From: Rugalucina vietnamica
Lineage: Eukaryota > Mollusca > Bivalvia > Lucinida > Lucinidae
Assembly: GCA_964017185.1 (NCBI GenBank)
Contig: OZ024873.1
Span: forward strand, 50,888,760 to 50,952,759
DNA: 64,000 bases
Direction of reading: 5' to 3'
How positions within the stretch are numbered: the stretch's first letter is position 1; each line of letters begins with the position of its first letter. Below are positions 12,720 through 64,000 of this stretch, piece after piece. A program made the position numbers and the translations under genes. The notes beneath the pieces were generated by a model. It was not told where the DNA came from. It ran no database searches and saw nothing but the letters and a program-made list of their open reading frames with translations.

Positions 12720-13224
12720 TTAAAATGATTAAAAGCCCTGTTTTCAATGCTTTGGCGTGGAGTTGTTTGGCTTGGCACAAGTTCATAAGTTACCTGCTAG
12801 CACAACAAAACAGTGTCATACATTAAGTGCAATGAGAACCAGTGACAGCTACATTAGCCCAACTCAGTGACTGAGCTATCATTTGGGTGTTCTGTTTCAT
12901 TCCTGCAGAGTTTTCAGCGGCAATGCTTAGCACTCTTGCAATGCTTCTACAGAACGAATGTTGGCATCTGAAAGAATGCTGAAAGATATACTTGTTAATA
13001 CTGCTCTATCTCCAGATGCTTGCAAAACAACTTTGGTCATGCTGGAAGAACTCCTATTGTGTATTTTTAGAAAAAAATGCTGCATTGTGTAATTGTGACC
13101 TGATACAGCAACTCCACAACACAGTGAATTATTAGAATGACAAGTGACAACATCTATTTTGAGTATAACTACATGTAAATTTGTGTTTCAGCAGCATTCT
13201 GTGCAATCCTACAGCAACCATGGA

Positions 13225-16200: not shown

Positions 16201-16770
16201 CTTAAGGCCAAAAGTAAAATTATGGATAACATGATACACAAAACCTTTTAGGCATAAAGTATGGATAATATGATACACAAAACCCATAGGCCAAAATTAT
16301 GGATAACATGATACACAAAACCTTTTGGCCAAAAGTAAAACTATAGATAACATGATACACAAAACCTTTTAGGCCAAAATTATGGATAACATGATACACA
16401 AAACCTTTTAGGCCAAAAGTAAAATTATGGATAACATGATACACAAAACCTTTTAGGCCTAAAGTATGGATAACATGATACACAAAACCTTTAGGCCAAA
16501 CGTATGGATAACATGATACACAAATCCTTTAGGCCAAAAGTAAAACTATGGATAACATGATAGACAAAACCTTTTAGGCCAAAATTATGGATAACATGAT
16601 GCACAAAACCTTTTTGGCCAAATGTATGGATAACATGATACACAAAATCTTTTTGGCCAAAAGTAACACTATGGATAACATGATAGTCATCATACACAAA
16701 ACCTTTTAGACCAAAAGTATGGATAATTATGAAACACAAAACTTTTAAGGCCAAAAGTAAATAACTTGAT
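13225..16770. repeat. 3.5-kb satellite of 39- and 44-bp monomers with higher-order repeats
   Basis: The monomer reads TATGGATAACATGATACACA followed by AAACCTTTTAGGCCAAAAT (39 bp); a longer form carries AGTAAAAC (44 bp). The two often alternate. A block at 13717-13989 recurs at 14604-14876 with an identical minus-strand translation, giving a higher-order period of about 887 bp. The stop-free stretches on the minus strand (repeated YHVIH-FGLKGFV) are produced by the repeat and are not counted as genes. Confidence 0.95.
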
Positions 16771-41300: not shown

Positions 41301-44300
41301 TTAATGTATCGTGTCTTATATATATTCTTAGCTTTATCATTCTTCTTGATGCCTTTGGCGTGATTGTAAAATGAAACTAGGCAGAATGTTTTGTGACAAT
41401 ACTGCACAGTCAACCTTTACTGTCTGCTCTTGCCCATTTAGCTTTGCAGTGCTAATTACAATGCATACATATGATATCTCCCTATTTGGAGGAATTTTCC
41501 TATTTTGGAGGAATTTCTCCCTATTTGGAATTTCAAAATTTCCTTATAACATCTCCCTATTTGGAATTTCAGATCTCCCTATTTCAAATCATGAAACTCC
41601 TTCTTTGTTTAATCATTCTCCCTATTTCGAAAGGCAAGTCTCCTATTTTTGCTTCCCAGGTGGATCACATAATGCAATGGTATAAAGATGAAAACATGAT
41701 GTTTACCCTATATACCCATGATGCAACCAAATTTATTTCAGCACAGATTGAAGCAACATCACACAACGTGTGACAAAATGGAGTGTGGTGATTGGAATCC
41801 ACATAGATTGTCCAACAACCAACAGTAAGGCAGTTGGCTTAATCACTTGATCATCTCACCGTTGTGTCTGGTGTGGGTTCGAGCCCCGCACTGGCCACAT
41901 GTGAGACAAGCCAAGTTCTGCTTGCAGGTGTGCCAGGTGTTTTTTCTCGGGGTTCTCCCGTTTTCGCCCACCTACTGATTGGCCCATCTCATATGAGCTG
42001 AAATAATCTTGAAAGGGACGTAAAACTGAATTAAAAAAAAAAAAAAAAAAAAGCAGTTGGCTCTTTGCTGTATGTTTTTGTTGGCTATAAATCACTGCAC
42101 TCCATTTCTCCTTGTGACATGTTACGTTGCAACAATCTGCGCAGTAAGAAATGTGCATCACTGATATATGAGCCAAGTCATGAGGAAACCGGATTTTGGC
42201 CTATGTGAAAACAAAGGCGCAGATCAGCTGTGCAGTAACTGCACAGCTGATCAGCACCTTTGTTTTCCCTACACAGATAGTACAATCCTTTTTCATCTCA
42301 AGTCTGAAATTACATGCTTCTAGCCTTCTTCTGTGACTGTACAGACCAGGTCGGAAACCCTGAAGATCAGTTTTTGCATGACGCGGCTCATGTAGATGTT
42401 GATGAAGCCATTAGCTAAGTAACAGAAAGCTTTTCACTTTATATATTTTATTATGCAAAAACTCAGGCTATTGCAAGACAATAGTAACATGTCTTGCAGC
42501 AAAAACCTCAGCTACAGATCTCATTAAAAGCTGAAGTTATTGTTTTAGAAACTAGATATATCTGTATATTAATATAAATAAAACAGTTTTTATGTAGAAT
42601 TTGTATTTAATATCTTTTTTACATGTATCATAAATGTTATAAAACCTTGATTATTACTTTTATATGAGACAGATCTGAAGGTTATGTTACTCACACATTT
42701 ATGACAGCTTCATTCCATTGTAGGGGCTTTTGTTGCATTGTGGTTAAGTGACATGCCTTGTAAAAGAGTAAGCTAGTTTGAGCGCCAGCTACTCTAGTCA
42801 TTCAGACAAGATTTTAAACTGTGGTATCATCTCTATATGACCATAGTTGTTGAGCGGGATGCATGAAGTCACTTGGCTTACCAGTTTTGTGACAGTCTGA
42901 CACTATTATAGTTTTTCGATCCATCCTTTTTAGTCATTAACATGTAGCTAGTGCTTAAAAGCAACAAATGAGCCGCCTCATGAGAAAACCAACAATCTGC
43001 ATATGGGAAAACAAAGGGGCAGATCAGCTTCGCAGCAGGGCCTTTGTTTTCGCTACATGGATAGTAAGTTCCTCTTCTTTCTAAATCCAAAATTTCCAGC
43101 CCCTAACGATCTTCTGTGCTTGTACAGCTTGGTTTGTGTCAGACCTGCTGGGAAACCACATTGTTTGTTTTCTCATGACGCGGCTCAAATCAATGACAAA
43201 GACAATGGCAAAGACACAGATCAGGTGCAAAGTAATTGCACAGCTTGTCAGCATCTACTCCATAGATAAAATACAGTAAGTAACTGGAGGAGAAGTCCAA
43301 CTAAGATATAACTACCCATTAACTTTCTCAAACCAAGGTTTTATGCCACCTGCAATTTTCTGTCACTGTATACCAAAAGACAGATTTTCACATGACGATG
43401 TTCATTTGATTTCAGATCTACATAGCTGCATTCAGTATAATGCATGGTGATGCCTTCCGACTGGTTTACGGCTACGATAGCTATGGCAATACCTGTGACG
43501 CCGACAACACGGGCAGGAAGGTGAAGAATGTGTCACTGTCGGGCATGAACATGAAAGGGAGGCCGTAAGTACATAACGAAAACATGACTATATATGCAAT
43601 AATTTTCAATTTTTTTTTTTTTTTTTTTTTTTTTGCTGTAAACATGAAAATTTTTGGTCTAAATATTTTGATATTTTCAATATTTATGTTCAAAACATTG
43701 ATGGTACACATTAGAACCACATGCAGTTGTAATGAGTACCTGCAATCTATGTTTTGGGTCAAAAATAAGTAAAAATTGCATACCCATGTACACCAAGTTT
43801 ATCACATTAAAGTGGGATATTACACAATTGGTGCCCTTGAGTGAGGATGACATGGCGATTTGTTTACCCGAGGCAGGCAATATAACCTGTCGAGGGTGAA
43901 CAAATCGTCATGTCACCCTCACTCAAGGGCAACAATTGCTTTATTATACAGAACCCTTTTTGAAACAAATTAGCGACATACCATAGGACAAACACGTGAC
44001 ACCAAGTGCAACTGCACATTTAGGTGAATATGACGTCAGAGGGTGATATGATCATGCGACATGACAGAATAGCACCCTCCACGTGCACTTTACACAAACG
44101 CATGTGACTGCAAGTGCAGCTGAACGTTTTAGGCAGATGTGACGTCAGAGGGTTATAATTATGATCATGCGACATGACGGAATAGCACCCTCCGTGTGAC
44201 CTGCTCTGGGCCAATGAAAATCCACACTCAGCCAATGAATATTAATGAGGTATAATAGAAAGGTTTATACATGATTTACTGATGAGCTAGAAATATGTAC

Positions 44301-47300
44301 TATGTGAATATACAATATAGAATTCTGGCACATCTCTTTCTTTCATGGAGATAATGGTGGGCTAGTGGCTGGAGGCATCAAACTCAAGACCATGAGGTCA
44401 GAGGTCCAAATCTCACCGGTGCTCGGAGGTGTTATGCCCTTGAGCAAGACACATTTACTCTCCATGGTATAGGTTAATACACTGGAAGCACTGGTTCTGT
44501 ATGCACATGACTGAAAAAATTGTTAATGTGACATTAAAAACAAAAACAAAACAAAAAAAAAAAAAAACAAAAAAAAAAAACACTTACTTTTTAATGAAGA
44601 TTGGGAATGAAAATAGTTCTTTAATCATTCTCCTTCTTCTGACTAAATGTTTTGTTTTAAAAATCATTTATTAACGGGCCATTTCAGTAACCTAATTATA
44701 AAAGGGATACCCACTAACTTGCTAAATTGCAGTTTTGTGTGGGTGAAATTTCTCTATTAATCAATCCAATACAAAGTGCCAAAATAATGCTTAAAATGGA
44801 ATTGATCAGATTTGCTGATAATTCTGGTTCCATTGTAAGAGTGTCTGCATTTGTATGACTTCTTCCATTGGGGCATGCTTATTAAAACACCATGTCTGGA
44901 ATCTAGCATGTCTAGTATGCAAATTTTACCATATTTTTCTCAGCATGAGAAAACCAACAATCAGGTCCAACACAAACCGGCCTGTACTGTCATGGAAGCA
45001 GGCTAGAATCTTAAATTTTGGATCGAAGAAGAAGAGGGATTATACTATCTGTATAGTGAAAACAAAGGCGCTGATCAGCTTTGCATTAATTACTACAAAG
45101 CTGATCTGCGTCTTTGTTTTTGCATGTGCAGATAGTTGGTTTTCTCATGCAGGGGCTGAAATGGTACAGTATGCTAACCTGCCTATCCAGCATCCTGTAG
45201 TATTTTTGGTATAAAAATTTGACAATGTTTAGATTACAAATCGTAAAAATGACCATATTTTAGATGTAACAGGTAATCCAAGGTAATAAAACTCCTGCCA
45301 CCCGATGGCAAATGTGCCCCTTTAAGATGAGGAAAACTGGACATGCATGTAAAACAGTTTTACCATATTATAGTGCTGTGTTAGGGGTTGTGTCTAGATA
45401 ATATGGACATGCTAACAGAATGTTGTGATGGGACAAATAAGTCAGAAAAAGTAGGACTCCCTGCTATAGAATAGGAAAGCTTAATTTCAAAAGATCTTTA
45501 GCTATTCTTAAATGAAGATTTAAATATAAGAGGCATTGTATAATAAACAGAGATGTAAAATGGTTGTGTTAAAATTATCTATTAAACCTAGTTTTGCAAT
45601 TGTGCTTATAGCATAAATTCTTTTAAAACTTTTAACTTAAATATCTAAATTTCTTTATCTCTAAATTCCTTTCAGGTACATGTGTTTTTTATGGATGTCC
45701 AGTCCCCATTCACCGATCTGAGTCTGTGTGTCAACAAATGTCCTGACTATCAGTTAGATGACCTTGGGGAAGTCCAGCACTTCATCCAGACCTGGGGTTC
45801 ACAGCTGTGTTAAAAACAATTTTGTTTTTATTTACATCAAATGCTATAAAGCATTTACTGCATGTATTCTTTATTTTTTTCAGATATGTGTTTTTCATGG
45901 ATGTCCAGTCCCCCTTCACCTCTCTGAGTCTGTGTGTTAACAAATGTCCTGACTACCAGTTAGATGACCTGGGGGAAGTTCAGCTGTTCATCCAGACCTG
46001 GGGCTCACAGCTGTGTCGCTATGATATCTGGCCCAACAAGACAACACAACAGGTGTCGTCAAAGAAAGGGCCCTGTCCTGTTGTACCAGTCCTAGCCAGG
46101 TAATATAAAATGAGCCTGTGCGTGAGAAAACCAACAGTTTTGGTTCCTATCAGGTCCTACACAAACCGAGCTGTACAGTCACAGAAGATGGTTAGAGGCT
46201 GGAAATTTTGGATTTAGAAAGTAGAGGAATTGTACTATCCGTGTAGCAAAAACAAGTATGCTGATAAGCTTTGCAGTTTCTGCGTCTTTGTTTTCACCAA
46301 TACAGATTGTTGTTTTTTCCATGTAGCAGCTCAATGTTGTATGTTATATTACATTTTTGTAAAATACTTGATTGACATACCATATTTGTTCTAATTAGCA
46401 CACAATCATGGTCCAATAAGTGTACACCCTGGTCATTGCAAAAAAAATTATATACTTGGTATATTTCACAATTTTTACACAAATTGCTGCATTAAAGCTT
46501 AACATTAAATGGTCAAACACTATTATAAACGATTGGAACACTTCAATGGCATCATAGTTGATTAGTTTGACCTGTTTATTTTATCCGATAATGTATTGTT
46601 TTGGTTCATAGTGTGCACTTATTAGGACGATATTTTGTTACCTTGACTTTAGATTATTTTGAAAAGGTAAGCGCACTAATTAGAACGATTACAGTACTGT
46701 ATTTTACTGCAAAGTTTTGAATATAGAAATGTATGATAAAATTTTAATCACATAAAATATACAGAATGAAATAGGAAAAATTGAGAGACTAATCAGGCTG
46801 CTGTAGTTTCACACATCTACACTGTTTTCCTAGACATTTTAATGTATAGAATTGTTTCTCAAGAAATATTTCTTTGCGCATTCTTCCTGTTTAAAAAACT
46901 GTCGTAGAGAAAACATTTAACTGTCTCAAGGATTTAAATCAATGTGGTAAAATATATAGGGTGTTACCCAAAAGGTGCAAACTGCCAATTAAAGTAGAAA
47001 CTTAAACCAAATCTGTTACAATAATTCACTTGGCTGGAGTTTAATTCTTACCAAAAGTCTACTTTAATTATCACCTAAGCAATGCTTATTTACTTCTATG
47101 CAGTGAACTGATAGTTAATTTGACTTTGAAACGACACCCTCTGCCGATACTGCACATGGGATTTTTACTTCTCCATATACCATAAAAATTCTATTAAACT
47201 GACACCAACACTCTAATAAATGCCCCAGGGGTGGATCCAGGAGTTCTGAAAGGGGGTTTGTTTTCAACAATTTACCTGATTATTCACAAATTTGCCGATG

Positions 47301-53300: not shown

Positions 53301-56300
53301 GCATATGCGAAAACAAAGACGCAGTTCAGCTGTGCAGTAACTGCACAGCTGATCACGCCTTTGTTTTCGCTACAGGGATAAAAAAATTTCTCTACTTTCT
53401 AAATCCAAAATTTGCAGTCTCTAACCATCTTCTGTGACTGTACAGCCCGGTTTGTGTTGGACCTGATCGGAACCCAAATAGATGGTTTTCTCACACACAG
53501 GCTCAAATCTCTTTGAGGGATAAGCTTTGTTGACACTAGCTCTTTGAAGAATAACAGTGTCGCAAGCCGCTATACTTTCTCTGATTAATTAAAAGATTGC
53601 TCGATGAAATATGCAAAAGGCATAGATTCTTTGACTTAAGGCAAAATGTCTGTATATTCATATAAACTAGTTATGATTTTATAGGCATTTACTTCAATTA
53701 ATTCTTGTAGACTCCATCTTAAGTTTAGTGGTAGAGCATTGGACTCCAAATCAAGAGGTCCTAAGGTTCAATCTCCATTGGCGGCACTGTGTTATGTCCT
53801 TGAGCAAGACACATTAACTCCCCAGAATGCTGGTTAAAGGCTAGGAAGCGGTGGCTCCATCCCGACATGACTGAAAAATAAAATTGTTGACTTGAGTGTT
53901 AAACCTCAAAACAAACAAAAACAAATCAATCTAATGCTGGAATAAGGAGCAATGTCAAATATGTACAATAATTAAAGGTTAAGATATCATCACAATTTCA
54001 GACTCAGACCAACAAAAATGCTGCTTAATCAATGAAAATGGAATAAAGTTTGCAATTGCATATTAAAGTTTAAAAGGCAGAGGGTTTATAATTACACCCG
54101 GTAAACTGCAATTGACCACCATCGGTGGTCAACGTAAAAAAGGTTGAATTATATCCAGTTATTTTGATCATTTCTTGTATTTCAAATATTGGTTATTTTT
54201 GAGCGGGAAACCAGCTGATAATGCAAAAATGGTGAATGTCACATAAATAAAGATGCTGTTCAGCAATTTTCAAAGTCGTTACTTATTACTACAGCTCAAC
54301 CTCATTATAACACTATCTTTGGGGTTCATGGAAACAAACCATGTTATAATTGAAACCATGTTATAATGAGTTTTACAAATGATGTACATGTATAACAAAA
54401 TAATCATTTTGGGAGCCATGTATTGAAAACAGCACTATAGTGAGGCACATTATAATGAGGTTGAACTGTAATAGGTTTAGGTGCAAAAATGTGACTGTAC
54501 TGAGGAGCTTTGCTAATGACATTTGCTATAGTTTCACAGATCATTTGATTGTTAATTTATCATAATTATAACAATGCACATTTTCATTTCAGCGAGCCTT
54601 TGATGCATTTCTGTGTGCCAAAAGATCTTGTTAATCTTAAGTTTGATGCCAAGAATGACATTGTAGCTTACCTCAACGAGAAGGACGTATTCCATAAGGT
54701 CCTGAGCGACCTGATTGCCTCTTGGAAGCAGATGATACTACTAGTTCTGTTATCTATAGGTAGTACACCGAGTCACTGATCAGTTGCACTGTATTTTGTT
54801 GATGTTTTATTGCATAAGCAGGGGGTGTGATGTATTTGGTTTAAGTGGTCAGTTTTTTGTGGTGCATTATGAATATAATATATTTGTAGTATTTTGGTGA
54901 CATCATAAATGCATAAGATACAGAATTCAGTCTTCATTAGGAGCCTCTGCATCTGGAAATCCTAAAATAGGAGTGAAGCCAGAATAACCATAAATTGGAG
55001 TTTTTAAGTCACCATGAATGTTTTAGAAAAAACAAAACAAAAAATCTACAAAACTTCTAGATATTGTAAGCAATTAAGATATTCCATCAGCCTTGTGCAG
55101 CAGTCACATGATACTCTAGATTAAGCTTTAGAACGAAAGTGTAAGGAAACGAAATAAAGAATACTCGATAAAACTGACCACAAAAATCAAATACATTGCA
55201 CCCTGATTAAGAAATGATGCACAGGTCCAACCTTGCTTGAAGATCATTGTGAAAATTTTGATTTTGTTTGCTTTCTTGCATAAAACTTTGCTGGCTTTTT
55301 CTGGATGTCAAACAGTTTTTGGAGCTGTTCAATATTTTGCTTGAAAATGTGCCGCCTTAACCATGACGCTTCACCGCAAACATGACAAAAAAGCACAAAG
55401 TTAAGATTTTAATTATGTTTTGAGAAGTGCATATTTTGAAATTATAGTTAAAAGTGGTACAATCTATATCATTACATAAACTTGCCCATGTAATAAACAG
55501 AGATTTTTTTCGCTTTAAAAATTGAAAAAATTTCAGCTGAAAAATTTTGATATTTTTGTAATTTTTGCTTAAAACATAGATTGTGGGTACACGTTAGAAC
55601 CGCCTCGCCGAGGTGGTTCTAACGAGTACCCACAATCTATGTTTTCGAGCAAAAATAAGAAAAATAGATATACCCCTGCATACCCCAGTTTTGCTATATA
55701 AAATTGGGGTTCAAGGGGCTATACATTATATGGACATGTTTTCCTGATGCATTCTCTAAATACTATGATGACATTAGTATACTAACCCATTTCATGTCAT
55801 TGATATTAACATGATTTTCTATTCTTTTATTTAAATTAATATTTTTATTGATCAATACATATTTAAAAGAAGCAATAAATTTCTAAAAGCGGTTACAGAT
55901 GTTTTTGAAAAACATGAATCAGCATCAATATAAATTAAATTGTTCAGATTCAATGTAGCTTGTTGTCTACTATGCCTATACATGCATATGTATTGCGGAG
56001 CTTTTTTCCTTGTTTATTTGCATAGATATTGCCGTTAGTAACATCCTGTAGTTACATGTCCCCTCTTTAGTTTGTTCTTACCCTGTGTTATTCAAGAATA
56101 ATAAGATAAAGCAACACCAAGGAAGAGTCACTGCTTTGTCAGTTACAGGATTTTGAAATTCTTTCACACAGAACCTCAATTACATTTACCACCCATTTTT
56201 AAACATTGCTCAGAATTTGATGTTCCTTGCTGCTTAATACTGTCACTTCAAAGGATCTGGGCTTTAATTACTAGATGATAAATTGTGGCATGTCATATTA

Positions 56301-59300
56301 ACCACACCACCCAAAAGGCCATGGCTCCATCCCAGCATGATTGAAAAAATACTGTCTGGGACATGTAACCACAATGCAAATAAACAATACAGTACATTGT
56401 TAATTACCAAAATGAGTCTCACATTATTTGATACATTGACAAAAAAGGATTTCATAACATATTAAAATATTATAGGATCTTTCCTAGGTGTTGCAAGAGT
56501 ACATACCGGTAGAAAAATGGACATTGAAAGCTGTTGTTAGACAGCATAATGTTCAAAAAAGCCATTCAAATTTTAAAAAGGATTTCAAGAATTTCTAATT
56601 GAAAAGGTTCAAAATGATTCTTTCAAGCAAGGTTGGGACTGAGACAATAAGATCAATGTAGTAAAAACAAAAAACACACACACAAGGTATGTATGTTCCA
56701 TGTTTTAATTTAATTTCAGTCATCCTGTATTGAATCGCTGTATCCCTCAAAACTTGGTTGAGCTTGCCTCGAATGCATCCGCCAGTATCGTTCATTTTCT
56801 GAACACAAGCGACATCTTCCAGAAAGTTCTGGCCGATCTTTACCAGTGTTGGCGTCAGATGCTGGTCTTGTGTTTTGTTGCCGTAGGTACGGAGTGCTAG
56901 TGCTAGTGCCATATTTATTATCTTATAGTCTTTGAAAAATAGTACAGTGGTGGGTTTTGAGACTAATGCCAGAAAACAAAATGCATAGGTTCTTTATAAC
57001 ACTATAGTTGGGGCCCATGGCAATAATTGTGACCATTTAGGGATGATATATATCCAAAACCATGCTTTAAATAAAGAGTGTTATAAAGGGATGTAGGTGT
57101 TCATCCATTATTTTGTTTTTCTCTGCAAAGAAAAAAATCTGATGGGATCACACATTGTGTAGAAATATTTCTGATTGAAAAACACATTGTGAAGCAAGTG
57201 TCTGATTAAAAACACATTGTGTGGCAGTGTAGCAATGTTTTAAAGGAAAACACGGTGTGTAGAAATGTTTCTGATTAAAAAACAACAACAACAACAACAA
57301 CAGCATTGTGTAGCAATGTTTCTGATTAAAAAAGCACATTGTGTAGCAATATTTATTATTAAAAACACATTGTGTAGCAGTGTTTCTGATTGAAAAAACA
57401 CATTGTGTAGCAATGTTTCTGATTAAAAAACAAAACAAAAAAATGTGTAGCAGTGTTTCTGATTAAAAACACATTATGTAGCAATGTTCTTAATAACAAA
57501 AACACACATTGTGTAGCAATGTTTTTTGTTTGAATAATACATCGTGTAGCTATGATCTGTCCTGATCATTGAAAACACATTGTGTTGTGTAGCAATGTTT
57601 TTGTTTGAAAAACACATTGTGTAGCAATGTTTCTGATTACAAAAACATTATGTAGCAATGTTTCTGATAAAAAAAACACATTGTGAAGGAACATGGAAAA
57701 CATTTTGTTGGCTGGCTAGTCATGCATAGTGGCTGTAGGTGTTCATATATAGAGTAGTTGTAGCTGCTTTCAATATGCTTGACACCCCTAGTATTTGATC
57801 AATACTGTAACCTTTCCCCTCCTGTTTTATGTATACCCGTGTACAAGTGCTGTAGTTTTGAATCAACTTCATATCTCGTGGTAACTTTCACTATTTAACA
57901 TCGTATCATAACCCTTCTCTAAATTGCCTTAGCTGTTGGCTGGACTCTTACCTGAGAAATAAAGAAACAACAAAAACAATAGTGTGGAAAAAGAAAAGAA
58001 AACCACACATTGTTGGATTTAAATTCTATTCACTTTTAGTGTTAAATATAGTAAAACACAAATTGCATGGACATTTTAACTGAAGAACTGTTTGATTTAC
58101 AAATTCATGCCTGCAGGCATGCATGTCTGTTTTAGTATACTAGTTTTGTCTTTCTTTATTTCACAGTATTTAGGTTGCTTGCTAATGACTCTATAATATA
58201 CAAGCACATTACAAAATCGTTCCCATGCAATATACAGAGAATTTTTTCAGCTTAAAAAAGTGAAAATTTCATTGGAAAAATTTTGATATTTTTCTTATTT
58301 TTGCTCGGTGAGGCGGTTCTAACGAGTACCCACAATCTATGTTTTGGAGCAAAAATAAGAAAAATAGGTATACCCCTGCATACCCCAGTTTTACTATATA
58401 AAAGTGGGATTTGAGGGGGTATACTTTACACGGACATGTTTTCATGATGAAATAGTCATCAGCACAGAAATTTGCTAGTGGCTTAATTTTTTTTCTCCAA
58501 AAGTTTGTAATTTCATTAAGACGGTTTCAATTAGCACCAACAATTCCTTAAGCCTGTTGAAACCTTTTCTATAGCCACTAATCTTAGTCACAGTATATTG
58601 CTTGATACTGTTCACATAACTCTGTGTGTAGTGAAGTGCATGTTTAATGTCTGACTTTCAAATTTAGCCTAATGACTTTAATGTGTATTATATATTGTGG
58701 TTCCTTTGTTGATAGTTAAAATACATTTCTTTCATTAGCAATTTCAAGTCTTCTTTTTTCTGCTCATATAAGGTTCTAATAGCCTGTGCACACAAATAAC
58801 AGAGCTTTGTTTAACTCCTGCAGTTAGGGTTTGTGTAGAAAGTTAATAAACGTGTACTCTGGAATAAATACCAGCTTTTAGATTGAAATTTCAGATAATC
58901 AGAAGCTTACATGTGGCATTTTTAAAATATTTACATATGAGCCGCCTCGTGGGAAAACTAACAATGTGGTTTCCGAACAGGTCTGACACAAACCGGCCTG
59001 TACAGCTACAGAAGCAGGCTAGAAGCTTGAAATTTTGGAGTTAAGTAGAGGAGGAATTGTACTATCCGTGTAGCGAAAACAAAGGCGCTGATCAGCTTCG
59101 CGGTTACCGCGAAGCTGATCTGCGCCTTTGTTTTCGCCTATGCAGATTGTTGGTTTTCCCATGGGGCGGCTGATAAGAAATACACTGATTGCACCCTGCC
59201 TCAAATAAAAGCACTTTTGCTTGGCTCAGTTATGACATTGTATTGCAATTCTAGAAGATAATGACAGTGATTCTAAAAACTTTTGAATTTAACTGATACT

Positions 59301-62300
59301 TTGTTGTATTGGAGCTATAGTTTAACAAAGTCTGTGCATGTACAATTTGAGCCGCCTTATTAGAAAACCAACAATTTGCATAGGCAAAAACAAAGACGCA
59401 GATCAGCTTCGCAGTAACTGCGAAGCTGATCAGCGCCTTTGTTTTCGCTACACGGATAGTACAATTCCTCTACTTTCTAAATCCACAAATTGTTGGTTTT
59501 CTCTTGCAAAGGCTCATTTAGTAACTTGGTGTCTGTGGCATCAACTCATTTGCAAATCAGTGCATTTCTTATTGTAGGCAAGGCAAAGAAAAAACATTGA
59601 CTAACATTATGGCTAAAAGAAAACGATTTAAGGAAATATTTATGCTTAACTGTACACAGGAAACTGTTAAGCAGGCTTTTCCGTGTTGTTGCTCAAATAA
59701 GAATGATGATTCAGATTCAAATTGAGCCTATGCATGAGAAAACCAACAATTTGCACATGCAAAAACAAAGACACAGATCAGCTGTGCAGTAACTGCACAG
59801 CTGATCAGCGCCTTTGTTTTCGCCACATGGATAGTACAATTCCTCTTCTACTTATATCCAAAGTTTCAAGCTTTTAGCTTTATTCTGTGACTGCACAGCC
59901 TGGTTTGTGTCTGACCTGGTCATAAGCCCAAATTGTTGGTTTTCTCATGCACAGGCTCAACTGTTAGTATCTCTATGCAGAAACCTAGTTTGCTTTTAGT
60001 TTAAATCTGTATATCTTCCATATTTTGCAGGTTTTTCTGGTTTGATGGTACTGCTGATCCGGTTCCTGGCCTCAGTAATAGTGTGGGTGATACTAGCCGT
60101 AGCTATTGTGGCCAGTATAGGTAGGTATGGAGGATGTTTTAGAATTCATAGGTCATTTGATGTATGAGCCGTGTCATGAGAAAACAGGATTTTTGCCTTT
60201 GAGAAAACAAAAATGCATATCAGATGTGCAGTAATTGGATTTTTGGAATCAAAAACTGGATTTTTGTCTATGGGAAAACAAAGGCTCAGATCAGCTTTGC
60301 AGTAACTGCACAGCTGATCAACGGCTTTGTTCTCGCAACACAGATAGAACAGTTCCTCCTATGTAAATCCAAAATTTCAAGCTTCTTCCCTGCTTCAGTG
60401 ACTGTACAGGTCGGTTTGTGTCCAACCAGGTTGGAAATCCCGAAGACTGGTTTTCTCGCGTCATGGCTCTTAATATACCAGTAAATGCTGTGTAATTATG
60501 GAGAAGTTTTGTTAATGAGCTGAGTCATTAGAAATTCAACATCGTGGTTTCAGAATGGGGCCAACACAAACGGAGCTGTACAAGCACAGAAGATGGCCAG
60601 AGGCTGGAAATTTTGGATTTAGAAAGTAGGGGAACAGTACTTATAATCCCTGTAGCGAAAACAGCTGATCAGTGCCTTTGTTCTCGCTACATGGATAGAA
60701 CAATTCTTCCTCTATGTAAACCAAAATTTTAAGCTTCTAGCCTGCTTCAGTGACTGTACAGGTCGGTTTGTGTCAAACCTGGTCGGAAATCCTGAAGACT
60801 GGTTTTCTCACATCGCAGCTCATAATATACCAGTAAATTCTGAGTAACTATGGACTGAGTCATGAGAAATTCAGCATTGTGGTTTCAGACTGGGGCCGAA
60901 ACAAACAGAGCTGTACAAGCACAGAAGATAGCTAGAGGCTGGAAATTTTGGAATTAGAAAGTAGAGGAACAGTACTATCCGTGAAGCGAAAACAATGTTG
61001 CTGATCAGCTTAGCAGTTACTGCGAAGCTGATCTGCGCCTTTGTTTTCGCACATGTAAAATGTTGTTTTTCTCATAAAGTGGCCCCTATAATGTAGTTTT
61101 ACTTGTCTTCCAGTGGGTACAGGTTTCCTATGGTGGACCTATGTGGACATTAAAAACCAGATAGAAAAAGACGAAGCTGTCAACTTGCCTTTACTAGACG
61201 TAGAAATCAACAGTGAACGGGCATTCTTGATTTACTCCATAGTGTCTACTGTGTTAACGGTAAGTACATGGTACCACTATAGTTATGAGTGCTTAAGTGA
61301 ACAGTAATAGTATCATTATCATCATCATCATATCTGTTTTATAGTCCGTTGTCCTCTACTGAGGGTTGGACTTGTTTGACAAGTCTCCTTCTTAGACGAC
61401 CTCTCCACTCTGATCGATTCTGAGGATCAGCAGTATCCATTCCTAGCTTTTTTCTGTCGTCTAACAACACTTCATCCCATGATTTCCTTGGCTTGCCAGA
61501 TCTTTTCTGTGCAACTATGTTTAGCTTGCGTACTTGAGCAATCCAGCCTTTGCTGCGCTCTACGTGTCCATACCATCTCATTCTGCTGGAGCGAAGCACC
61601 ACATCTATATCCTGGAGTCCAAGCTTTGAGAGAAGGGAGTCTGAGCTTACTTCATCATTCGCCTTGACATTACAGATCCAGCGGATCATCGCACGGTCAT
61701 TGCGCCGTAGGCGGTTAAGTGTAGCCACAGTCATGGCCCATGTTTCTGCTGCATGCAGCATTACACTTCTCACGCAAGTTGAATACACTCGACCTCTAGT
61801 CAAAAGTGGCAGACTGCGGTTGGTGAGGAGGGGGAGTAGCTGTCGGAACTTGCCCCAAGCAGATTTGCAACGCGTAACTGCAGCCTGTTCACAGCCACCA
61901 CCAGCAGAAAGCATGTCTCCTAGATAACAGAACCCTGTAATAGCCTCAACTGTTTCTTCATCAACCTGAACCTCCTTCACAAGTCTTCCATCTATAGGAC
62001 GTGCCTTTCCCAGACAGCGAGCACATCTGAAATCAGGATCAGGGCGTAAGGGGCCTTTGATTCCACTGCATTTCTTGTGGATCCAGGACAAGCAGCCACC
62101 ACAGAAGATAGCATTTCTTCCTACACCTGTCTGACACGCCACAGGGATCCTTTCCAGATTTTTTCAGAAGGTCCAGATTGGGGCCAGAGACCATAATCTT
62201 TGTCTTCCCCATGTTCACTCGAAGGCCTTTCCTCTCTGTCTCTGCTTTCCATGTCTTCAGCTTAACCAGTAGTTCCTCCATGGACTCAGCACTAATCATC

Positions 62301-63271
62301 AAGTCATCTGCATACAACAGCTCCCAAGGGCAGCCTGTACAGAACTCTCTGGATAAAGCCTCTAGCACAATGATGAAGAGTAGGGGACTTAGGACAGATC
62401 CCTGATGAACACCTACTTTGACACCAAACTCCTCACTGTATCCACTGCCAACTCTTACCCTACTTATCACGTCTTTATACATGGACTGGACAAGGCGCAC
62501 TAGCCACTCGTCGATTCCAAGTTGTTGCTTTGCCCACCAGATGACACCCCGTGGGACCCGATCAAATGCTTTCTCCAGATCAACAAAGGCCATGTAGAGC
62601 AGCTTGTTAGCAGCTAAGTGCTTCTCTTGTAGTAAACGGACAATGAAAATCGCATCTGTAGTGACATAAAGCCACACTGCAGCTCATCAATCTCAATTCT
62701 TTGCCGGATGAGTCCTTCTACTACACGCTCCAGTACTTTCATTGTCTGTTCAATCAGCTTCAAGCCCCTGTAGTTACCCCTGTTCAGAGCATCTCCTTTG
62801 CCCTTGTACAAATTGACAATGTAACTCTCCTGCCAGTCAATTGGGATGCAACCTTCTGAGATGATGTCCTCAATAAGATCACGCACCAACAAGCAAAGTA
62901 AAACAAGTAAAACAAGCAAACTTGTTGTTGTTGCTTATTGAGGTACTTTGTTCATTGAATATGCAAAGCTAAGAGGATATCAGTTTCCTCTTCTTAAGGT
63001 CTTGTTCGCAGAGAAGTTTTAGGGTAAATCCCAGTCAACAGCTATGGTCATGTTGGGAAATAAGGTGTTGACAGAGTAGTAAAGCAGAAAACAAACAAGA
63101 ATTCCTTTTTGCAATAAAACACAAAGGATTTTCGCATATATGTGATAAGGCCTTTAAACATTGATAATCACATTAACTCCCTACAGTACTGGTTAAACCC
63201 AGGAAGCGTTGGCTCCCTCCTTACATGACTGAAAAAGTGTTGACTGGGACGTTAAGCCTCAACACACTAAC

Positions 63272-63302
<31 letters not shown>

Positions 63303-64000
63303 AAAACATTGATAATGACTCTGTGCCTTTGATTATACAGTTTCTGTCATCTCAAAGTTAAGTTTATCACCACTTACTGTTAATTTAGAAAAATTTTCCG
63401 GACTTTTTTTTTTTTACACAATTTTTTTTCTTAATAATTAGCAAAATGTTTAATGCCGTTGCATGTATTCATGCAATCTATCAAGCTTATAGAGAAAACA
63501 TTAAATACCTGAGGCAACGAATTTGCGAATATTCACATACTAATATTTGCAAACTTTACTTAGTTTAGATATAGTATATAGCAACATAGAAGCCACTGAG
63601 GTAGCCAGTGGGCTTGAGTTTAAACACAATTATGTTTTATTGAAAAATTGCAAATTACCCTCTCTTCTCTCTTCTTTTGCAGATGGTAGATTTGTACAGG
63701 TCAACCTCATTATAACGCTATCATTTGTGGTCCATGGAAACAGACCATGTAATAAGTGAAACTGTTATAACAAGGTTATTTACAATAGACATAAAGCAAA
63801 AGAATCAATTTGGGAGCCATGACATGTCTTTGTTATATTGAAAACAACACGAAAGGGGGTTGTTTTTTATTTTGGTTGAACTGTACATGTACTTGTTTTT
63901 CCTTTTGCAGGTAATTCTATTACTGATCATCCTTATCATGAGAAAGAGAATAGCACTGGTTGTAACGATGTTTTACGAGGCGGGAAAGTGTATAGCTGCT
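31644..64000 (+). CDS. SLC44A1-like: Choline transporter-like protein (SLC44A1/CTL1 type), 5' half, eight exons, runs off the window
   Basis: Joined coding exons 31644-31667, 36859-36957, 43416-43564, 45884-46099, 54593-54759 (or 56720-56886), 60031-60120, 61114-61259 and 63911-64000 give 327 uninterrupted codons. All introns are GT-AG and phases agree at every junction. The family are multi-pass membrane proteins moving choline (and, for some members, ethanolamine) across plasma and organelle membranes for phosphatidylcholine synthesis. Seen here: an NRGCTD block before TM1 (about residues 27-51), GYDSYGN-C after it, a loop of about 130 residues with Cys68, 108, 112, 135, 155 and 170, then TM2 (about 209-233), TM3 (about 234-258, ending in an LWW motif) and TM4 (about 285-307) followed by MRKRIAL. 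The short loop and these blocks match vertebrate CTL1 better than the longer-loop CTL2/4/5 as I recall them. Vertebrate CTL1 is about 650 residues, so about half is present. Substrate is inferred from family only. Confidence 0.92.
31726..31805. repeat. GAT/GATGAT microsatellite just inside intron 1
   Basis: Imperfect (GATGAT)n beginning about 60 bp after the exon-1 donor. Confidence 0.9.
31815..32235 (+). mobile_element. V-domain-like SINE split by a family-A element
   Basis: GCTTATTGGTCAAGCATCAG, CATTGAGCAAGATAGTACTG and CAGGAAACAGTGGCTAAATCC lie left of 31967. TATGTTAAACTAC and an A-run lie right of 32199. Confidence 0.75.
31967..32199 (+). mobile_element. Family-A element inserted in a SINE, intron 1
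   Basis: GAGCCGCCTCGTGGGAAACC to TTTTCACATGGGGCAGCTC. SINE-like sequence stops at the left edge ('GACAGACTGAT') and resumes at the right ('ATGTTAAACTAC', then an A-run). Confidence 0.9.
32596..32809 (+). mobile_element. Family-A element with half-deleted core, TSD ATAT
   Basis: GAGTTGTGACGCGAGAAAAC to TTTTCTCATGAAGCGGTTC, with ATAT on both sides. Only GCTGATCAGCTCATCTGCGCC is left of the core, so one stem half is lost. Confidence 0.87.
33401..34577. mobile_element. Tandem-monomer element with terminal hairpins in intron 1, ~160-bp monomers
   Basis: It opens with TATCGCACCTGC-tta-tAGCAGGGTGCGATA (33404-33433) and a (GTCCGTCC)n run. About seven monomers follow with 'GACATCAGAGATAGCTGCGAG', 'CCTTGCATAGTAATTGTCC' and CCCTTGACCTATATTTCACGG. 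It closes with GCAGGTGCGATA (34543-34554) and hairpin CTCCGCGGAG. Open frames across the monomers are a by-product of the repeat, not a gene. Confidence 0.78.
34767..34990 (+). mobile_element. tRNA-derived SINE with V-domain-like core
   Basis: TGGCTTAATGGTAGAG resembles a box A and GGGTTCAATCCCC a box B. The CTTGAGCAAGACACATT core and TGTTAAACC-(CAAA)n tail follow. The core resembles the V domain of vertebrate and invertebrate SINEs as I recall it. Confidence 0.83.
35091..35327 (+). mobile_element. Family-A element, intron 1
   Basis: GAGCCGTGATGCAAGAAAAC to TTTTCTGGTGATGTGGCTC. Core TTCGCAGTAACTGCGAA. Confidence 0.88.
36041..36195 (+). mobile_element. tRNA-type SINE fragment, intron 1
   Basis: GGTGCATTGGTTTTGTCACT, CAGGCTCGATCCGGGGCTTC (box-B-like) and ATGACCTTAGCTGTTGGTGG. 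Related fragments lie at 25760-25870 and 42722-42875. Confidence 0.68.
36366..36581. mobile_element. CG-rich inverted-repeat element, intron 1, 280 bp before exon 2
   Basis: TACTGTAAATTCGGAAATTTTCGCGAG pairs with CTCGCGAATATTTCCGTATCTACAGTA (each in pieces below 20 bases). The interior repeats GAATTCGCGAG. Confidence 0.82.
36859..36957 (+). CDS. SLC44A1-like: Exon 2: residues 9-41, start of TM1
   Basis: 99 nt, phase 0 to 0. It encodes an acidic stretch (DDEEKTD), the family block NRGCTDI and the first half of TM1 (LVLLIFVLFWAGM). The acceptor is TTTCAG at 36858 and the donor GTAAGT at 36958. The 17-bp acceptor region is duplicated exactly 57 bp upstream (36785-36801). Use of that upstream site would add in-frame sequence with an immediate TAA, so it is a decoy. 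A family-A inverted-repeat element begins about 6 bp after the donor starts. Confidence 0.93.
36964..37205 (-). mobile_element. Family-A element abutting the exon-2 splice donor
   Basis: Starts AAGCCGTGTCATGAAGAAAC about 6 bases after the donor GT at 36958 and ends TTTCTCGCATCCCAGCTC. Core CTGTGCAGTAACTGCACAG. Confidence 0.87.
37424..38895. mobile_element. Tandem-monomer element with terminal hairpins in intron 2
   Basis: It opens with TATACCCCCGGCAT-tta-TGCCGACGGGTATA (37430-37459), then a (GTTCGTTC)n run. Diverged ~180-bp monomers follow ('TATATCTCATGAACCAATGA', GAGGTCAAAATCTAGGTCACC), then long T-runs (38234-38332) and three ~118-bp direct repeats (about 38505-38850). It closes with GCCGGGGGTATA (38855-38866) and hairpin GTGCC-tctcaa-GGCAC. 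CTAGTT stands at both edges and may be a target duplication or part of the element. Confidence 0.75.
39125..39358 (+). mobile_element. Family-A element inserted in an older repeat, TSD ATAT
   Basis: ATAT at 39121-39124 and 39359-39362. The flanking repeat (39010-39120 plus 39363-39430) exists without the insertion at about 63011-63140 (shared TGCAATAAAACACA and 'CAGCTATGGTCATGT'). Confidence 0.92.
39602..39804 (-). mobile_element. Family-A element, TSD AAAT
   Basis: AAAT at 39598-39601 and 39805-39808. Core CTGTGCAGTAACTGCACAG; part of the long arm is deleted. Confidence 0.9.
40001..40236 (+). mobile_element. Family-A element, TSD ATTT
   Basis: ATTT on both sides. Core CTGTGCAGTTACTGCACAG. 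Confidence 0.9.
40288..40523 (-). mobile_element. Family-A element, TSD ATTT
   Basis: GAGCCACCGCATGGGAAAACC to TTTTCTCACGCACAGGCTC, with ATTT on both sides. Core CTTCGCAGTGTTACTGCGAAG. Confidence 0.92.
40618..40845 (+). mobile_element. Family-A element
   Basis: GAGCCTTTGCGTGAGAAAACC to TTTTCCCATGAGGTTGCTC. Core CTTCGCAGTTACTGCGAAG. Third copy within 850 bp. Confidence 0.9.
41704..41790 (+). mobile_element. Relic resembling the tip of the 2.75-kb transposon, intron 2
   Basis: ACCCTATATACCCATGATGC and CAGCACAGATTGAAGCAACA follow the terminal bases of the element at 7710 (ACCCTGTATACCG..GATGC, CACAGATTGATGCAACA), then AAAATGGAG. About 90 bp are alignable; the remaining element is not visible. 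Confidence 0.65.
41827..42053 (+). mobile_element. tRNA-derived SINE with A-tail
   Basis: Box-B-like GGGTTCGAGCCCC near 41876, body 'ACATGTGAGACAAGCCAAGT' and CGGGGTTCTCCCGTTTTCGCC, then AAACTGAATT and a ~20-base A-run. Confidence 0.85.
42170..42389 (-). mobile_element. Family-A element, intron 2
   Basis: GAGCCAAGTCATGAGGAAACC to TTTTTGCATGACGCGGCTC. Core CTGTGCAGTAACTGCACAG. Confidence 0.9.
42970..43186 (-). mobile_element. Family-A element with deleted core, TSD AAAT
   Basis: GAGCCGCCTCATGAGAAAACC to TTTTCTCATGACGCGGCTC, with AAAT on both sides. The core is shortened to CAGCTTCGCAGCAGGGCC. It lies 230 bp before exon 3. Confidence 0.9.
43416..43564 (+). CDS. SLC44A1-like: Exon 3: residues 42-91, end of TM1 and start of extracellular loop 1
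   Basis: 149 nt, entering in phase 0 and leaving two bases of a split Pro codon. It encodes IYIAAFSIMHGDAFRLVYGYDSYGNTC; the GYDSYGN-C run is close to vertebrate CTL1. An N-glycosylation sequon NVS lies at residues 79-81. The acceptor is GATTTCAG (ends 43415) and the donor GTAAGT at 43565. A different inverted-repeat family (family D) starts at about 43572, directly downstream of the donor. Confidence 0.94.
43572..43830. mobile_element. Family-D element 7 bp after the exon-3 donor
   Basis: CATAACGAAAACATGACTAT starts just after GTAAGTA. The centre is degenerate and carries a T-run (43612-43634); AGTGGGATATTACACAATTG marks the right part. Confidence 0.75.
43813..43940. repeat. Palindrome with ~50-bp arms in intron 3
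   Basis: AATTGGTGCCCTTGAGTGAG is inverted as CTCACTCAAGGGCAACAATT around GAGGCAGGCAATATAACCTG. Confidence 0.88.
43996..44215. repeat. Two ~107-bp direct repeats, each with a TGACGTCA site
   Basis: Each unit carries AAGTGCA-CTG, then TGACGTCAGAGGG and GATCATGCGACATGACGGAA (one base differs in unit 1), then AATAGCACCCTCC. TGACGTCA is a perfect CRE-type octamer. Function is not shown. Confidence 0.85.
44345..44580 (+). mobile_element. V-domain-like SINE, intron 3
   Basis: GGTGGGCTAGTGGCTGGAGG, AGGTCCAAATCTC, CCTTGAGCAAGACACATTTA and an A-rich tail to 44580. Confidence 0.8.
44942..45158 (+). mobile_element. Family-A element with worn left end, intron 3
   Basis: ATGAGAAAACCAACAATCAGG to TTTTCTCATGCAGGGGCTG. 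Core CTTTGCATTAATTACTACAAAG. Confidence 0.8.
45676..45812 (+). pseudogene. Truncated tandem copy of exon 4 (dead or poison exon)
   Basis: Positions 45679-45810 match 45885-46016 of exon 4 with about 12 mismatches in 132 bases (hand count). Most are silent; three codons change residue. The matching frame is open to a TAA exactly where homology stops, at 45811. An acceptor (TTTCAG, ends 45675) is kept, but the exon end and donor are missing. Entry from exon 3 would use the wrong frame because of two extra bases at the 5' edge, reaching TGA at 45719-45721. It is therefore a decayed duplicate, or at most a poison exon. An assembly artefact merging two haplotypes is possible. Confidence 0.82.
45884..46099 (+). 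CDS. SLC44A1-like: Exon 4: residues 91-163, Cys-rich part of extracellular loop 1
   Basis: 216 nt; one base completes Pro91 and the exon ends with AG of a split Ser codon. It encodes YVFFMDVQSPFTS, then LCVNKCP and further Cys at 135 and 155, with sequon NKT at 142-144. YVFF-D followed by a Cys-x3-Cys-Pro pattern is typical of this loop in CTL1. The acceptor is a T-run then CAG (ends 45883); the donor GTAATA at 46100 is weaker than its neighbours. A truncated tandem copy lies about 75 bp upstream, and a family-A element starts 12 bp after the donor. Confidence 0.94.
46112..46332 (+). mobile_element. Family-A element 12 bp after the exon-4 donor
   Basis: GAGCCTGTGCGTGAGAAAACC to TTTTTTCCATGTAGCAGCTC. 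The core is largely lost (GATAAGCTTTGCAGTTTCTGC). Confidence 0.88.
46381..46697. mobile_element. Second copy of the CCGTATTC-type element, intron 4
   Basis: CATATTTGTTCTAATTAGCAC pairs with GCGCACTAATTAGAACGATTA; internal GCACTTATTAGGACGATATT parallels the 6.3-kb copy. Confidence 0.8.
47408..47645. mobile_element. Inverted-repeat element, GAGGTTATAAAACTTTTTTC ends
   Basis: Left GGTTATAAAACTTTTTTCATGC pairs with right GCATGAAAAAAGTTTTATAACC. A central palindrome AATGCCAACAATTGTTGGCATT is present. Related sequence lies at 51680-51905 and 23010-23130. Confidence 0.85.
48248..48519. mobile_element. Family-D foldback element, well preserved
   Basis: CATCAGGAAAACATG to CATGTTTTCGTAATG. ATTGCGGGTACTCATTAGAA pairs with TAAGGTGTACCCACAATCAA around CCTCACCGAGG. 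Confidence 0.87.
48852..49138. mobile_element. Family-D foldback element
   Basis: CATTACGAAAACTTG to AAGTTTTCCTGATG; diverged central arms. Confidence 0.83.
49872..50815. mobile_element. ~945-bp element with GGATGTTCGCTGC inverted ends
   Basis: GGATGTTCGCTGC (49872) is inverted as GCAGCGAACATCC (ends 50815). Two internal blocks resemble each other (each with ATGCACACTACCCTATAT, near 50318 and 50700). No clear target duplication and no recognised protein. Superfamily unknown. Confidence 0.6.
51130..51629. mobile_element. Family-D element split by a family-A insertion
   Basis: Left part 51130-51184 (CATCAGTGGAACATGTTCAT), right part 51413-51629 ending AGTTTTCGCAATGA. The two parts join into a normal copy when the insertion and one ATAT are removed. 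Confidence 0.88.
51185..51412 (-). mobile_element. Family-A element nested inside a family-D element, TSD ATAT
   Basis: CAGCCGCCGCATGGGAAAAC to TTTTCTCACGCACAGGCTC. ATAT stands at 51181-51184 and 51413-51416. The family-D sequence reads through the junction as in uninterrupted copies. Confidence 0.92.
51680..51905. mobile_element. Second copy of the TTATAAAACTTTTTTC-type element
   Basis: GAGGTTATAAAACTTTTTTC to GAGTTTTATAACCTTGGGACC, with internal GTTGGCATTTTAACATTTTT. Confidence 0.83.
52633..52818 (-). mobile_element. Truncated family-A element
   Basis: CAAAGGCGATGATCAGCTTC, CTGATCATCGCCTTTATTTTC and TTTTCTCATGACATGGCTT remain; the left terminus is replaced. Confidence 0.75.
53272..53504 (-). 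mobile_element. Family-A element, TSD AAAT
   Basis: GAGCCTTCGCCTGAGAAAACC to TTTTCTCACACACAGGCTC, with AAAT on both sides. Core CTGTGCAGTAACTGCACAG. Confidence 0.92.
53729..53935 (+). mobile_element. V-domain-like SINE, intron 4
   Basis: GTGGTAGAGCATTGGACTCC, AGGTTCAATCTCC, CCTTGAGCAAGACACATTAA and TGTTAAACCTC-(AAAC)n. Confidence 0.83.
54291..54471. mobile_element. pogo-like MITE in intron 4, 122 bp before exon 5a
   Basis: CAGCTCAACCTCATTATAAC to CATTATAATGAGGTTGAACTG, bordered by TA on both sides. Confidence 0.83.
54593..54759 (+). CDS. SLC44A1-like: Exon 5a: alternative version of residues 163-219 (loop 1 end and first half of TM2)
   Basis: 167 nt: one base completing Ser163, 55 codons, one base of Gly219. 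It encodes EPLMHFCVP, a helical segment ending LIASWKQM and hydrophobic ILLVLLSI leading into TM2. It corresponds to the FFHRCAP...LISGVMTSKEIILGLCLL region of vertebrate CTL1. It has no N-glycosylation sequon and one Cys (170). The acceptor is TTTCATTTCAG (ends 54592) and the donor GTAGTA at 54760. It has the same length and phases as exon 5b and about 42% residue identity with it, so it is probably spliced as an alternative. Confidence 0.9.
55470..55749. mobile_element. Family-D foldback element between exons 5a and 5b
   Basis: CATTACATAAACTTGCCCATG to CATGTTTTCCTGATG. The central arms are nearly perfect around CGCCTCGCCGAGGTGG. Confidence 0.87.
56720..56886 (+). CDS. SLC44A1-like: Exon 5b: second, probably mutually exclusive version of residues 163-219
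   Basis: 167 nt with the same phases as exon 5a. It encodes HPVLNRCIPQNLVEL, a helical segment ending YQCWRQM and hydrophobic LVLCFVAV. Ser163 and Gly219 are preserved at the junctions (AG|T and G|GT), as are C170-x-P, I-V, D-x-F-x-KVL-x-DL and W-x-QM. Unlike 5a it has sequons NAS (181-183) and NTS (191-193) and extra cysteines at 206 and 214. The acceptor is TTTAATTTCAG (ends 56719) and the donor GTACGG at 56887. No stop or frameshift is visible, so it appears intact rather than decayed. Confidence 0.87.
57140..57690. repeat. Minisatellite of ~31-bp units in the intron after exon 5b
   Basis: About 15 diverged units of ACATTGTGTAGCAATGTTTC + TGATTAAAAA with variable A-runs, including a (CAA)n stretch near 57285. 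Confidence 0.9.
58207..58449. mobile_element. Family-D element lacking most of one central arm
   Basis: CATTACAAAATCGTTCCCATG to CATGTTTTCATGATG. The left copy of the GATTGTGGGTAC arm is missing; only the right one remains. Confidence 0.83.
58939..59172 (+). mobile_element. Family-A element, intact
   Basis: GAGCCGCCTCGTGGGAAAAC to TTTTCCCATGGGGCGGCTG. Core TTCGCGGTTACCGCGAA. Confidence 0.92.
59349..59515 (-). mobile_element. Family-A element lacking most of the long arm, TSD ATTT
   Basis: ATTT on both sides. Core CTTCGCAGTAACTGCGAAG. Only 167 bp, so near-symmetrical short arms remain. Confidence 0.92.
59724..59958 (-). mobile_element. Family-A element just upstream of exon 6
   Basis: GAGCCTATGCATGAGAAAACC to TTTTCTCATGCACAGGCTC. 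Core CTGTGCAGTAACTGCACAG. It ends 72 bp before the exon-6 start. Confidence 0.9.
60031..60120 (+). CDS. SLC44A1-like: Exon 6: residues 219-249, second half of TM2 and most of TM3
   Basis: 90 nt, accepting one base and leaving one base. It encodes FSGLMVLLIRFLASVIVWVILAVAIVASI; the IRF-x-x-x-x-VW pattern between two membrane helices is a CTL family hallmark. The acceptor is ATTTTGCAG (ends 60030) and the donor GTAGGT at 60121. The following intron is only 993 bp and is made almost entirely of three family-A elements. Confidence 0.93.
60166..60468 (-). mobile_element. Family-A element, first of three in intron 6
   Basis: GAGCCGTGTCATGAGAAAAC to TTTTCTCGCGTCATGGCTC. An internal repetition ('GGATTTTTG' and the AAAACAAA block twice) lengthens it to about 303 bp. 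Confidence 0.85.
60517..60821. mobile_element. Symmetrical long-arm family-A element, second in intron 6
   Basis: Both long arms are kept: ACACAAACGGAGCTGTACAAG at the left and CTGTACAGGTCGGTTTGTGTC at the right around a small core. This makes a ~305-bp foldback. Confidence 0.85.
60855..61086 (+). mobile_element. Family-A element, third in intron 6
   Basis: Left part 'TGAGTCATGAGAAATTCAGC', core CTTAGCAGTTACTGCGAAG, right end TTTTTCTCATAAAGTGGCCC. It ends 27 bp before exon 7. Confidence 0.85.
61114..61259 (+). CDS. SLC44A1-like: Exon 7: residues 249-297, end of TM3, connecting loop, start of TM4
   Basis: 146 nt, ending in phase 0. It encodes GTGFLWWTYVDIKNQIEKDEA..., close to GTGVLWWLYAK in vertebrate CTL1, then a charged linker and ERAFLIYSIVSTVLT entering TM4. 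The acceptor is TCTTCCAG (ends 61113) and the donor GTAAGT at 61260. A family-A element ends about 27 bp before the exon. Confidence 0.93.
61324..62892 (-). mobile_element. 5'-truncated, frameshifted non-LTR retrotransposon (LINE) with reverse transcriptase
   Basis: On the minus strand three overlapping frames form one reverse transcriptase: NLYKGKGD...NYRGLKL (about 62880-62680), then FVDLEKAFDRVPR, VHQGSVLSPLLF and catalytic YADDL (about 62600-62180), then a C-terminal part with LRRNDRAMIRWIC, MRWYGHVERS and GKPRKSWDEVL (to about 61340). Two frameshifts break it: one near 62660, where the residues between QCGFM and TTDAIF are lost, and one near 62130. A Cys/His cluster (CGGCLSWIHKKCSGIKG, then CARC) follows the polymerase domain. 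The 3' end carries a short ATG-type repeat. The endonuclease part is absent. It sits antisense in intron 7. The clade is unsure; RTE-like is my best guess. Not mobile as it stands. Confidence 0.9.
63170..63301 (+). mobile_element. 5'-truncated V-type SINE with A-tail, intron 7
   Basis: TTAACTCCCTACAGTACTGG, CAGGAAGCGTTGGCTCCCTC, GGGACGTTAAGCCTC and a ~30-base A-run. Confidence 0.78.
63699..63884. mobile_element. pogo-like MITE just upstream of exon 8
   Basis: CAGGTCAACCTCATTATAAC to ...GGTTGAACTG, bordered by TA. It ends less than 30 bp before the exon-8 start and so contributes or abuts the branch-point region. Confidence 0.78.
63911..64000 (+). CDS. SLC44A1-like: Exon 8, cut by the window end: residues 298-327
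   Basis: Acceptor CCTTTTGCAG ends at 63910. The frame stays open to the last base: VILLLIILIMRKRIALVVTMFYEAGKCIAA. This closely follows the CTL1 block [27 protein letters not shown]. The exon end and the remaining helices lie beyond the window. Confidence 0.9.

Follow-up and report, generated by a model that had tools for sequence, protein, structure and literature searches.

The fifth exon of an SLC44A1/CTL1-like gene in the lucinid bivalve Rugalucina vietnamica is present as two divergent neighbouring versions, 5a and 5b, which are very probably a mutually exclusive pair derived from an old tandem exon duplication. The gene lies in the window, the whole 64,000-nucleotide (nt) stretch that was analysed (contig OZ024873.1, here C5, at C5:50888760-50952759), which belongs to an assembly of 1.09 Gb in 47 contigs. 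In the proposed mechanism, the exon would have been duplicated in tandem long ago, exon 4 would be joined to either 5a or 5b, and either of these would then be joined to exon 6. Messages that contain both exons or neither would be frame-shifted, would meet an early stop and are expected to be degraded. The two resulting proteins would differ in about 45 residues at the end of the ectodomain and in roughly ten at the start of the membrane segment M2, so that the gene probably encodes two versions of the outer face. We infer that both exons are spliced in vivo, with a choice between tissues, decay of the aberrant messages, differences in glycosylation and an effect on function.

The exon pair and its reading frame

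Exons 5a (54593..54759) and 5b (56720..56886), both on the plus strand, are homologous neighbouring internal exons at a single genomic locus. Each is directly preceded by TTTCAG, directly followed by GTA, and open only in the expected frame. The 167 nt of each exon consist of one base that closes a serine codon begun by exon 4 (AG from exon 4 plus C/T from 5a/5b), 55 codons, and one base that starts a glycine codon completed by exon 6 (G+GT), so that both exons are phase 2 in and 1 out. An earlier note on this DNA had proposed the same coordinates and lengths, with one base taken and one left, and these hold, as do AG/GT dinucleotides at both exons. The peptides align without gaps and are identical at 22 of 55 positions; the count of about 24 of 57 in the earlier note is correct when the shared junction serine and glycine are included. 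The motifs C-x-P, D-x-F-x-KVL-x-DL and W-x-QM, listed in that note, are kept in both peptides.

The likeness of the two exons exceeds that of shuffled sequences by a wide margin, with a BLOSUM62 score of 129 against a mean of -47 (standard deviation 15.6) and a highest value of 23 in 20000 shuffles. At the nucleotide level, 86 of the 167 positions are identical. A tblastn search of the window with 5a detected 5b at E = 1.9e-13, with the next match at 0.088 on the opposite strand, and the search with 5b returned 5a as the sole match at E up to 0.1. Across the whole genome only 5a and 5b were retrieved, both with 5a as the query at a cut-off of 0.001 (5b at 1.6e-8) and with 5b at a cut-off of 1 (5a at 8.1e-9). 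A third copy of exon 5 is thus absent genome-wide at these cut-offs, and the window together with the next 40 kb downstream contains none at E < 0.1, the rows at 0.14 and 0.38 being weak and chance-like.

The lengths and phases of the exons determine the outcome of each joining. With 167 nt in each exon and phase 2 in and 1 out, a message with both exons or with neither is out of frame and meets an early stop. In the spliced partial model, 319 codons remain open with 5a alone or with 5b alone; a stop is reached at codon 198 when both exons are skipped and at codon 215 when both are joined, which bears out the frame break that the earlier note had deduced. Given these stops, mutual exclusion would be self-enforcing at the protein level. 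As characterised in two catalogues, mutually exclusive homologous exons are internal neighbours of the same frame and similar length that often shift the frame if both are used (PMC9741552, PMC5740500). The frame break on joint use supports assignment to this class, yet it is no requirement of the class.

Constraint, outgroups and rival explanations

The second codon position is the best kept between 5a and 5b, as expected for coding sequence, with identity of 25, 39 and 21 of 55 at positions 1, 2 and 3, respectively. The proportion of synonymous differences (pS) is 0.75, which is saturated, and the nonsynonymous distance (dN) is 0.59. In a neutral simulation, 5a was allowed to drift to the observed DNA identity of the pair in 5000 runs; the simulation starts at present-day 5a and includes no insertions or deletions, and is hence lenient. 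Of these simulated copies, 281 were still free of stops, and residue identity had a mean of 12.3 and a maximum of 21, with 0 of 5000 keeping the observed 22. Neutral decay fits the pair poorly.

Outgroups were provided by human CTL1 and by two more SLC44-type genes detected with the Pfam family Choline_transpo (PF04515), at C5:28.8 Mb (p28) and C5:67.05 Mb (p67). In both paralogues the region equivalent to exon 5 appears to be split over two exons. The second half was located by tblastn with 5a and 5b as queries (E ~8e-6 and 4e-6 in p28; 1e-3 and 4e-4 in p67). The NRCVP motif served to pick the first half out of the candidate exons, with exon ends set by eye, and tblastn for this half gave a weak match in p67 (E = 0.019) and none in p28. 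Neither half was found a second time between exons 4 and 6 of p28 and p67, in a search that was low-powered for the first half; a search with one paralogue's second half plus the next exon returned that paralogue only and is uninformative on further copies. Additional SLC44-type matches occur at C2:31.10-31.25 Mb, in three clusters close together that may be adjacent copies of a gene. Scans of viral contigs for relatives gave 147 and 12 pattern matches, none of which was confirmed.

On a fixed alignment, 5a scores 79 with p28, 55 with p67 and 64 with human CTL1, and 5b scores 107, 78 and 59 with the same outgroups. None of 5000 shuffles reached any of these six scores, under a null that is lenient in that the shuffles were not re-aligned. 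With re-alignment of the shuffles, human CTL1 scores 62 with 5a (16 identities; best of 1000 shuffles 30.5) and 49 with 5b (12 identities; best of 1000 shuffles 31.5). Exon 5b has NRC-I-P in common with the paralogues, 5a carries HFC-V-P, closer to human CTL1, and in the M2 half 5a agrees with human CTL1 at 8 of 25 residues and 5b at 3 of 25. With 5b nearer the paralogues and 5a nearer the human protein, neither is simply a decaying copy. The score of 5a with 5b on the fixed alignment is 135, above that of either exon with any outgroup; since the two are closest to each other, the duplication is most simply placed after the split between CTL1 and the paralogues. Judged on this short stretch, it would most simply also be later than the split from the human lineage.

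Length, phase, homology, frame effects and constraint all fit the mutually exclusive pair that the earlier note had put forward, and its use in transcripts is the part that we infer. Several points weigh on the other side. Mutually exclusive splicing does not hold for many adjacent exons that resemble each other, according to PMC5740500. The second-position identity of 39, though high, is within the range of the neutral simulation (mean 29.4, maximum 41). The pairwise tests indicate constraint on the pair, and constraint on each copy rests on few outgroups. The description of the splice sites as good also stands only in part: AG/GT is present at both exons, but among the seven donors and eight acceptors of the gene scored with a splice-site matrix, the 5a donor (3.48; 5b 6.8, other five 4.73 to 10.45) and the 5b acceptor (2.4; 5a 3.43, other six 3.23 to 10.28) are the lowest. 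Such modest sites are compatible with regulated exons, and equally with a poorly used exon.

The low-scoring sites are also what would be expected if one copy were a dead relic, an old duplicate that is unspliced and looks intact by luck, and the gene contains further tandem duplicates, plainly partial ones, which demonstrate that incomplete copies do arise. A relic is nonetheless improbable, as the frame, the exact length and the splice dinucleotides survive although synonymous sites are saturated, no neutral run kept as many residues, and both copies resemble the outgroups. A somewhat less improbable, though still unlikely, alternative is that 5a and 5b are alternative exons of which abundant transcripts with both or neither lower expression through unproductive splicing. 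The early stops in both of these products are what such control requires, and the weak splice sites are in keeping with it, but the retention of two different peptides would be left unexplained. This explanation overlaps with a mutually exclusive pair, and the likelihoods given to the two are not exclusive of one another. An assembly artefact or haplotype duplicate, which the earlier note had named as a possible refutation, is practically excluded by the mere 86 of 167 identical bases, by the single locus in a 47-contig assembly, and by flanks (54201-55200 against 56301-57100) that are unmatched, the best match between them being a run of 36 bases that lies upstream of 5a but downstream of 5b. 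Most remote of all is a chance likeness of an intronic open frame to 5a, given the genome-wide E = 8.1e-9, the distance of the alignment score from every shuffle, and the match of both exons to the outgroups.

Gene model and surroundings

The gene is SLC44A1/CTL1-like by its similarity to the human protein, in agreement with the choline transporter-like identity suggested in the earlier note. Human CTL1, used as a query with residue numbering that agrees with the chain in the Protein Data Bank (PDB), aligns with successive exons on the plus strand. Exon 2 (36859..36957) encodes M1 and aligns with human residues 20-42 at 56.5%, exon 3 (43416..43564) matches human CTL1 and encodes the end of M1 and the start of the ectodomain, and exon 4 (45884..46099), in the ectodomain, matches human residues 90-166 (E = 6.9e-9) and has two bases left over; exons 2 and 4 are bounded by AG/GT. 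Downstream of the exon 5 pair, exon 6 (60031..60120) takes two bases and encodes the rest of M2 onward. Exon 7 (61114..61259) is placed by its CTL1 match and the spliced model, and exon 8, also matched to CTL1, is cut at the window end (63911..64000) and continues to extended position 64097, extended positions being the window numbering carried on downstream of 64000. Exon 1 was not located; an upstream search for an MGC-type start gave one candidate with a stop at its fourth codon.

The partial protein spliced from exon 2 to the cut exon 8 in form b comprises 319 amino acids and retrieves the CTL1 chains 7wwb and 9qu3 from the PDB at E ~9e-62, the sole matches up to E = 10. Against Choline_transpo, the part within the window scores 14.4 bits, under the cut-off of 26.9, which is exceeded further downstream in the gene, for example at C5:50956239-50956394 (54.4 bits). 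The similarity to CTL1 extends beyond the window, with later parts matched to approximately extended position 73490. The peptides of 5a and 5b alone match no Pfam family and give only chance-level PDB matches (best E 0.65 and 0.22); exon 4 joined to 5a, or a longer model, does retrieve CTL1 from the PDB. Matches of the form-b model to the Pfam families SUR7 and Peptidase_U4 were below the cut-off and were treated as noise, and Rfam gave 0 matches at gathering scores over the whole window.

Three short duplications of other exons were observed in the gene. Exon 4 has a young, partial tandem copy at 45670-45810, which opens with TTTCAG followed by the beginning of the exon and is identical at 41 of 44 residues; it runs into TAA and other sequence, and a two-base difference near its start puts it out of register with the acceptor. 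At extended position ~72033-72107 lies a young partial copy (~75 nt) of the late exon at 71869-71961, with 1 of 25 residues different. The third, at extended position ~67410-67440, was noted by eye as a short copy of the beginning of the exon at 67472, preceded by CCAG and situated just upstream of that exon.

The intron that holds the exon pair contains several copies of a dispersed, partly palindromic repeat, with those around the pair at 48332-48466, 55527-55661 and 58304-58449. A second dispersed repeat family starts ~11 nt past exon 4; another of its copies, in inverted orientation, lies upstream of 5a at 53361-53505. Among the long inverted repeats of this intron, the pair 48332-48466/55527-55661 would loop out 5a only. 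No control of exon choice by RNA structure is claimed, as these inverted repeats belong to families that are multi-copy here. Elsewhere in the window, open frames on the minus strand at 61339-62683 resemble, by eye, pieces of a reverse-transcriptase type element, and a tandem array of ~3.5 kb at 13224-16763 (periods 38, 83 and 205) contains long minus-strand open frames that probably just reflect its repetitive sequence. In the same assembly, a COX1 match on contig C47 includes nine TGA codons and is open when translated with the invertebrate mitochondrial code; the sequence resembles that of a bivalve.

The altered protein stretch and known systems

Exon 5 is equivalent to residues 168-223 of human CTL1, in which the ectodomain spans residues 63-213 according to the 2026 structure report (PMC13160678). 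About 46 of these 56 residues hence belong to the ectodomain and ten start M2. Form b has two N-glycosylation sequons, NAS at 56772 (exon residue 18) and NTS at 56802 (exon residue 28), and three cysteines, at exon residues 7, 43 and 51; form a shares Cys 7, its sole cysteine, and contains no sequon. The two added sequons and two added cysteines described in the earlier note are therefore confirmed. One of the extra cysteines lies just outside the membrane and the other within M2, where Cys 219 is its counterpart in the alignment with human CTL1. The human protein also carries a sequon (NIS) in this stretch, closer to the shared cysteine. AlphaFold models of the 55-residue peptides, built from two-row alignments, have mean confidence scores (pLDDT) of 69.1 for 5a and 66.7 for 5b and contain helices at residues 10-29 and 32-54 and at 10-29 and 31-54, respectively, a mere agreement in shape that is weak evidence. 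In the human structure itself, the ectodomain was too poorly defined for modelling (PMC13160678).

The functional claims of the earlier note go further than the data. It had placed the change in a pore-lining helix; only ten residues start M2, and PMC13160678 lists putative pocket residues in M6, M8, M9 and M10 and names none in M2. It had also spoken of two transporters. The same paper reports that CTL1 in oocytes mediated no uptake of choline or ethanolamine and suggests a role other than transport (PMC13160678), so that "two transporters" overreaches, and choline uptake is doubtful even for human CTL1. The sequence supports the narrower wording of two ectodomain versions of a CTL1 protein. 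More speculatively, and with little confidence, the switch may swap the face of the ectodomain near the membrane, with its glycans, cysteines and charges, leave the membrane core almost untouched, serve recognition or partner binding, and perhaps be shared by many molluscs. A swap of the ectodomain face would point to recognition or partner binding, which fits a recent suggestion that transport is not the function of CTL proteins.

The type of event is known, and in SLC44 it is apparently undescribed. The known splice variants of vertebrate SLC44A1 differ at the C-terminal end and not in the ectodomain, and the A/B/F variants of NKCC2 (SLC12A1) are mutually exclusive. In this membrane transporter, too, the exon with alternative versions, exon 4, lies at the second transmembrane domain (PMC6873903). 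In contrast with CTL1, for which no M2 pocket residue is listed and transport is doubted, the second transmembrane domain of NKCC2 joins in Cl- binding and the variants alter affinity (PMC6873903). Exons 4A/4B of ZIP14 (SLC39A14) are likewise mutually exclusive; this SLC gene, of an unrelated family, is named in PMC5740500. In a bivalve, Crassostrea virginica, a duplicated exon is alternatively spliced in the alternative oxidase, a mitochondrial enzyme of another family (PMC5589949). Membrane proteins are over-represented among those with mutually exclusive homologous exons (PMC9741552). The tandem duplicated exon substitutions catalogued in PMC5740500 and PMC9741552 were validated by junction reads, unlike the present pair, which is read from the genome sequence. 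The main text of PMC5740500 has 0 mentions of 'SLC44', and that of PMC9741552 has 0 of 'choline' and one of 'SLC'. The earlier note knew of no precedent, and in the open-licence literature, with the catalogues covered by their main text, no description of a mutually exclusive exon pair in SLC44 was found; 'choline transporter' combined with mutually exclusive exons returned a fungal paper only.

CTL1 is an animal membrane protein of disputed function. A natural pair in which variation is confined to the end of the ectodomain and the start of M2 would be suited to assays of localisation, glycosylation, partners and ligands, and the tissue pattern of the two forms could hint at the role of the ectodomain.

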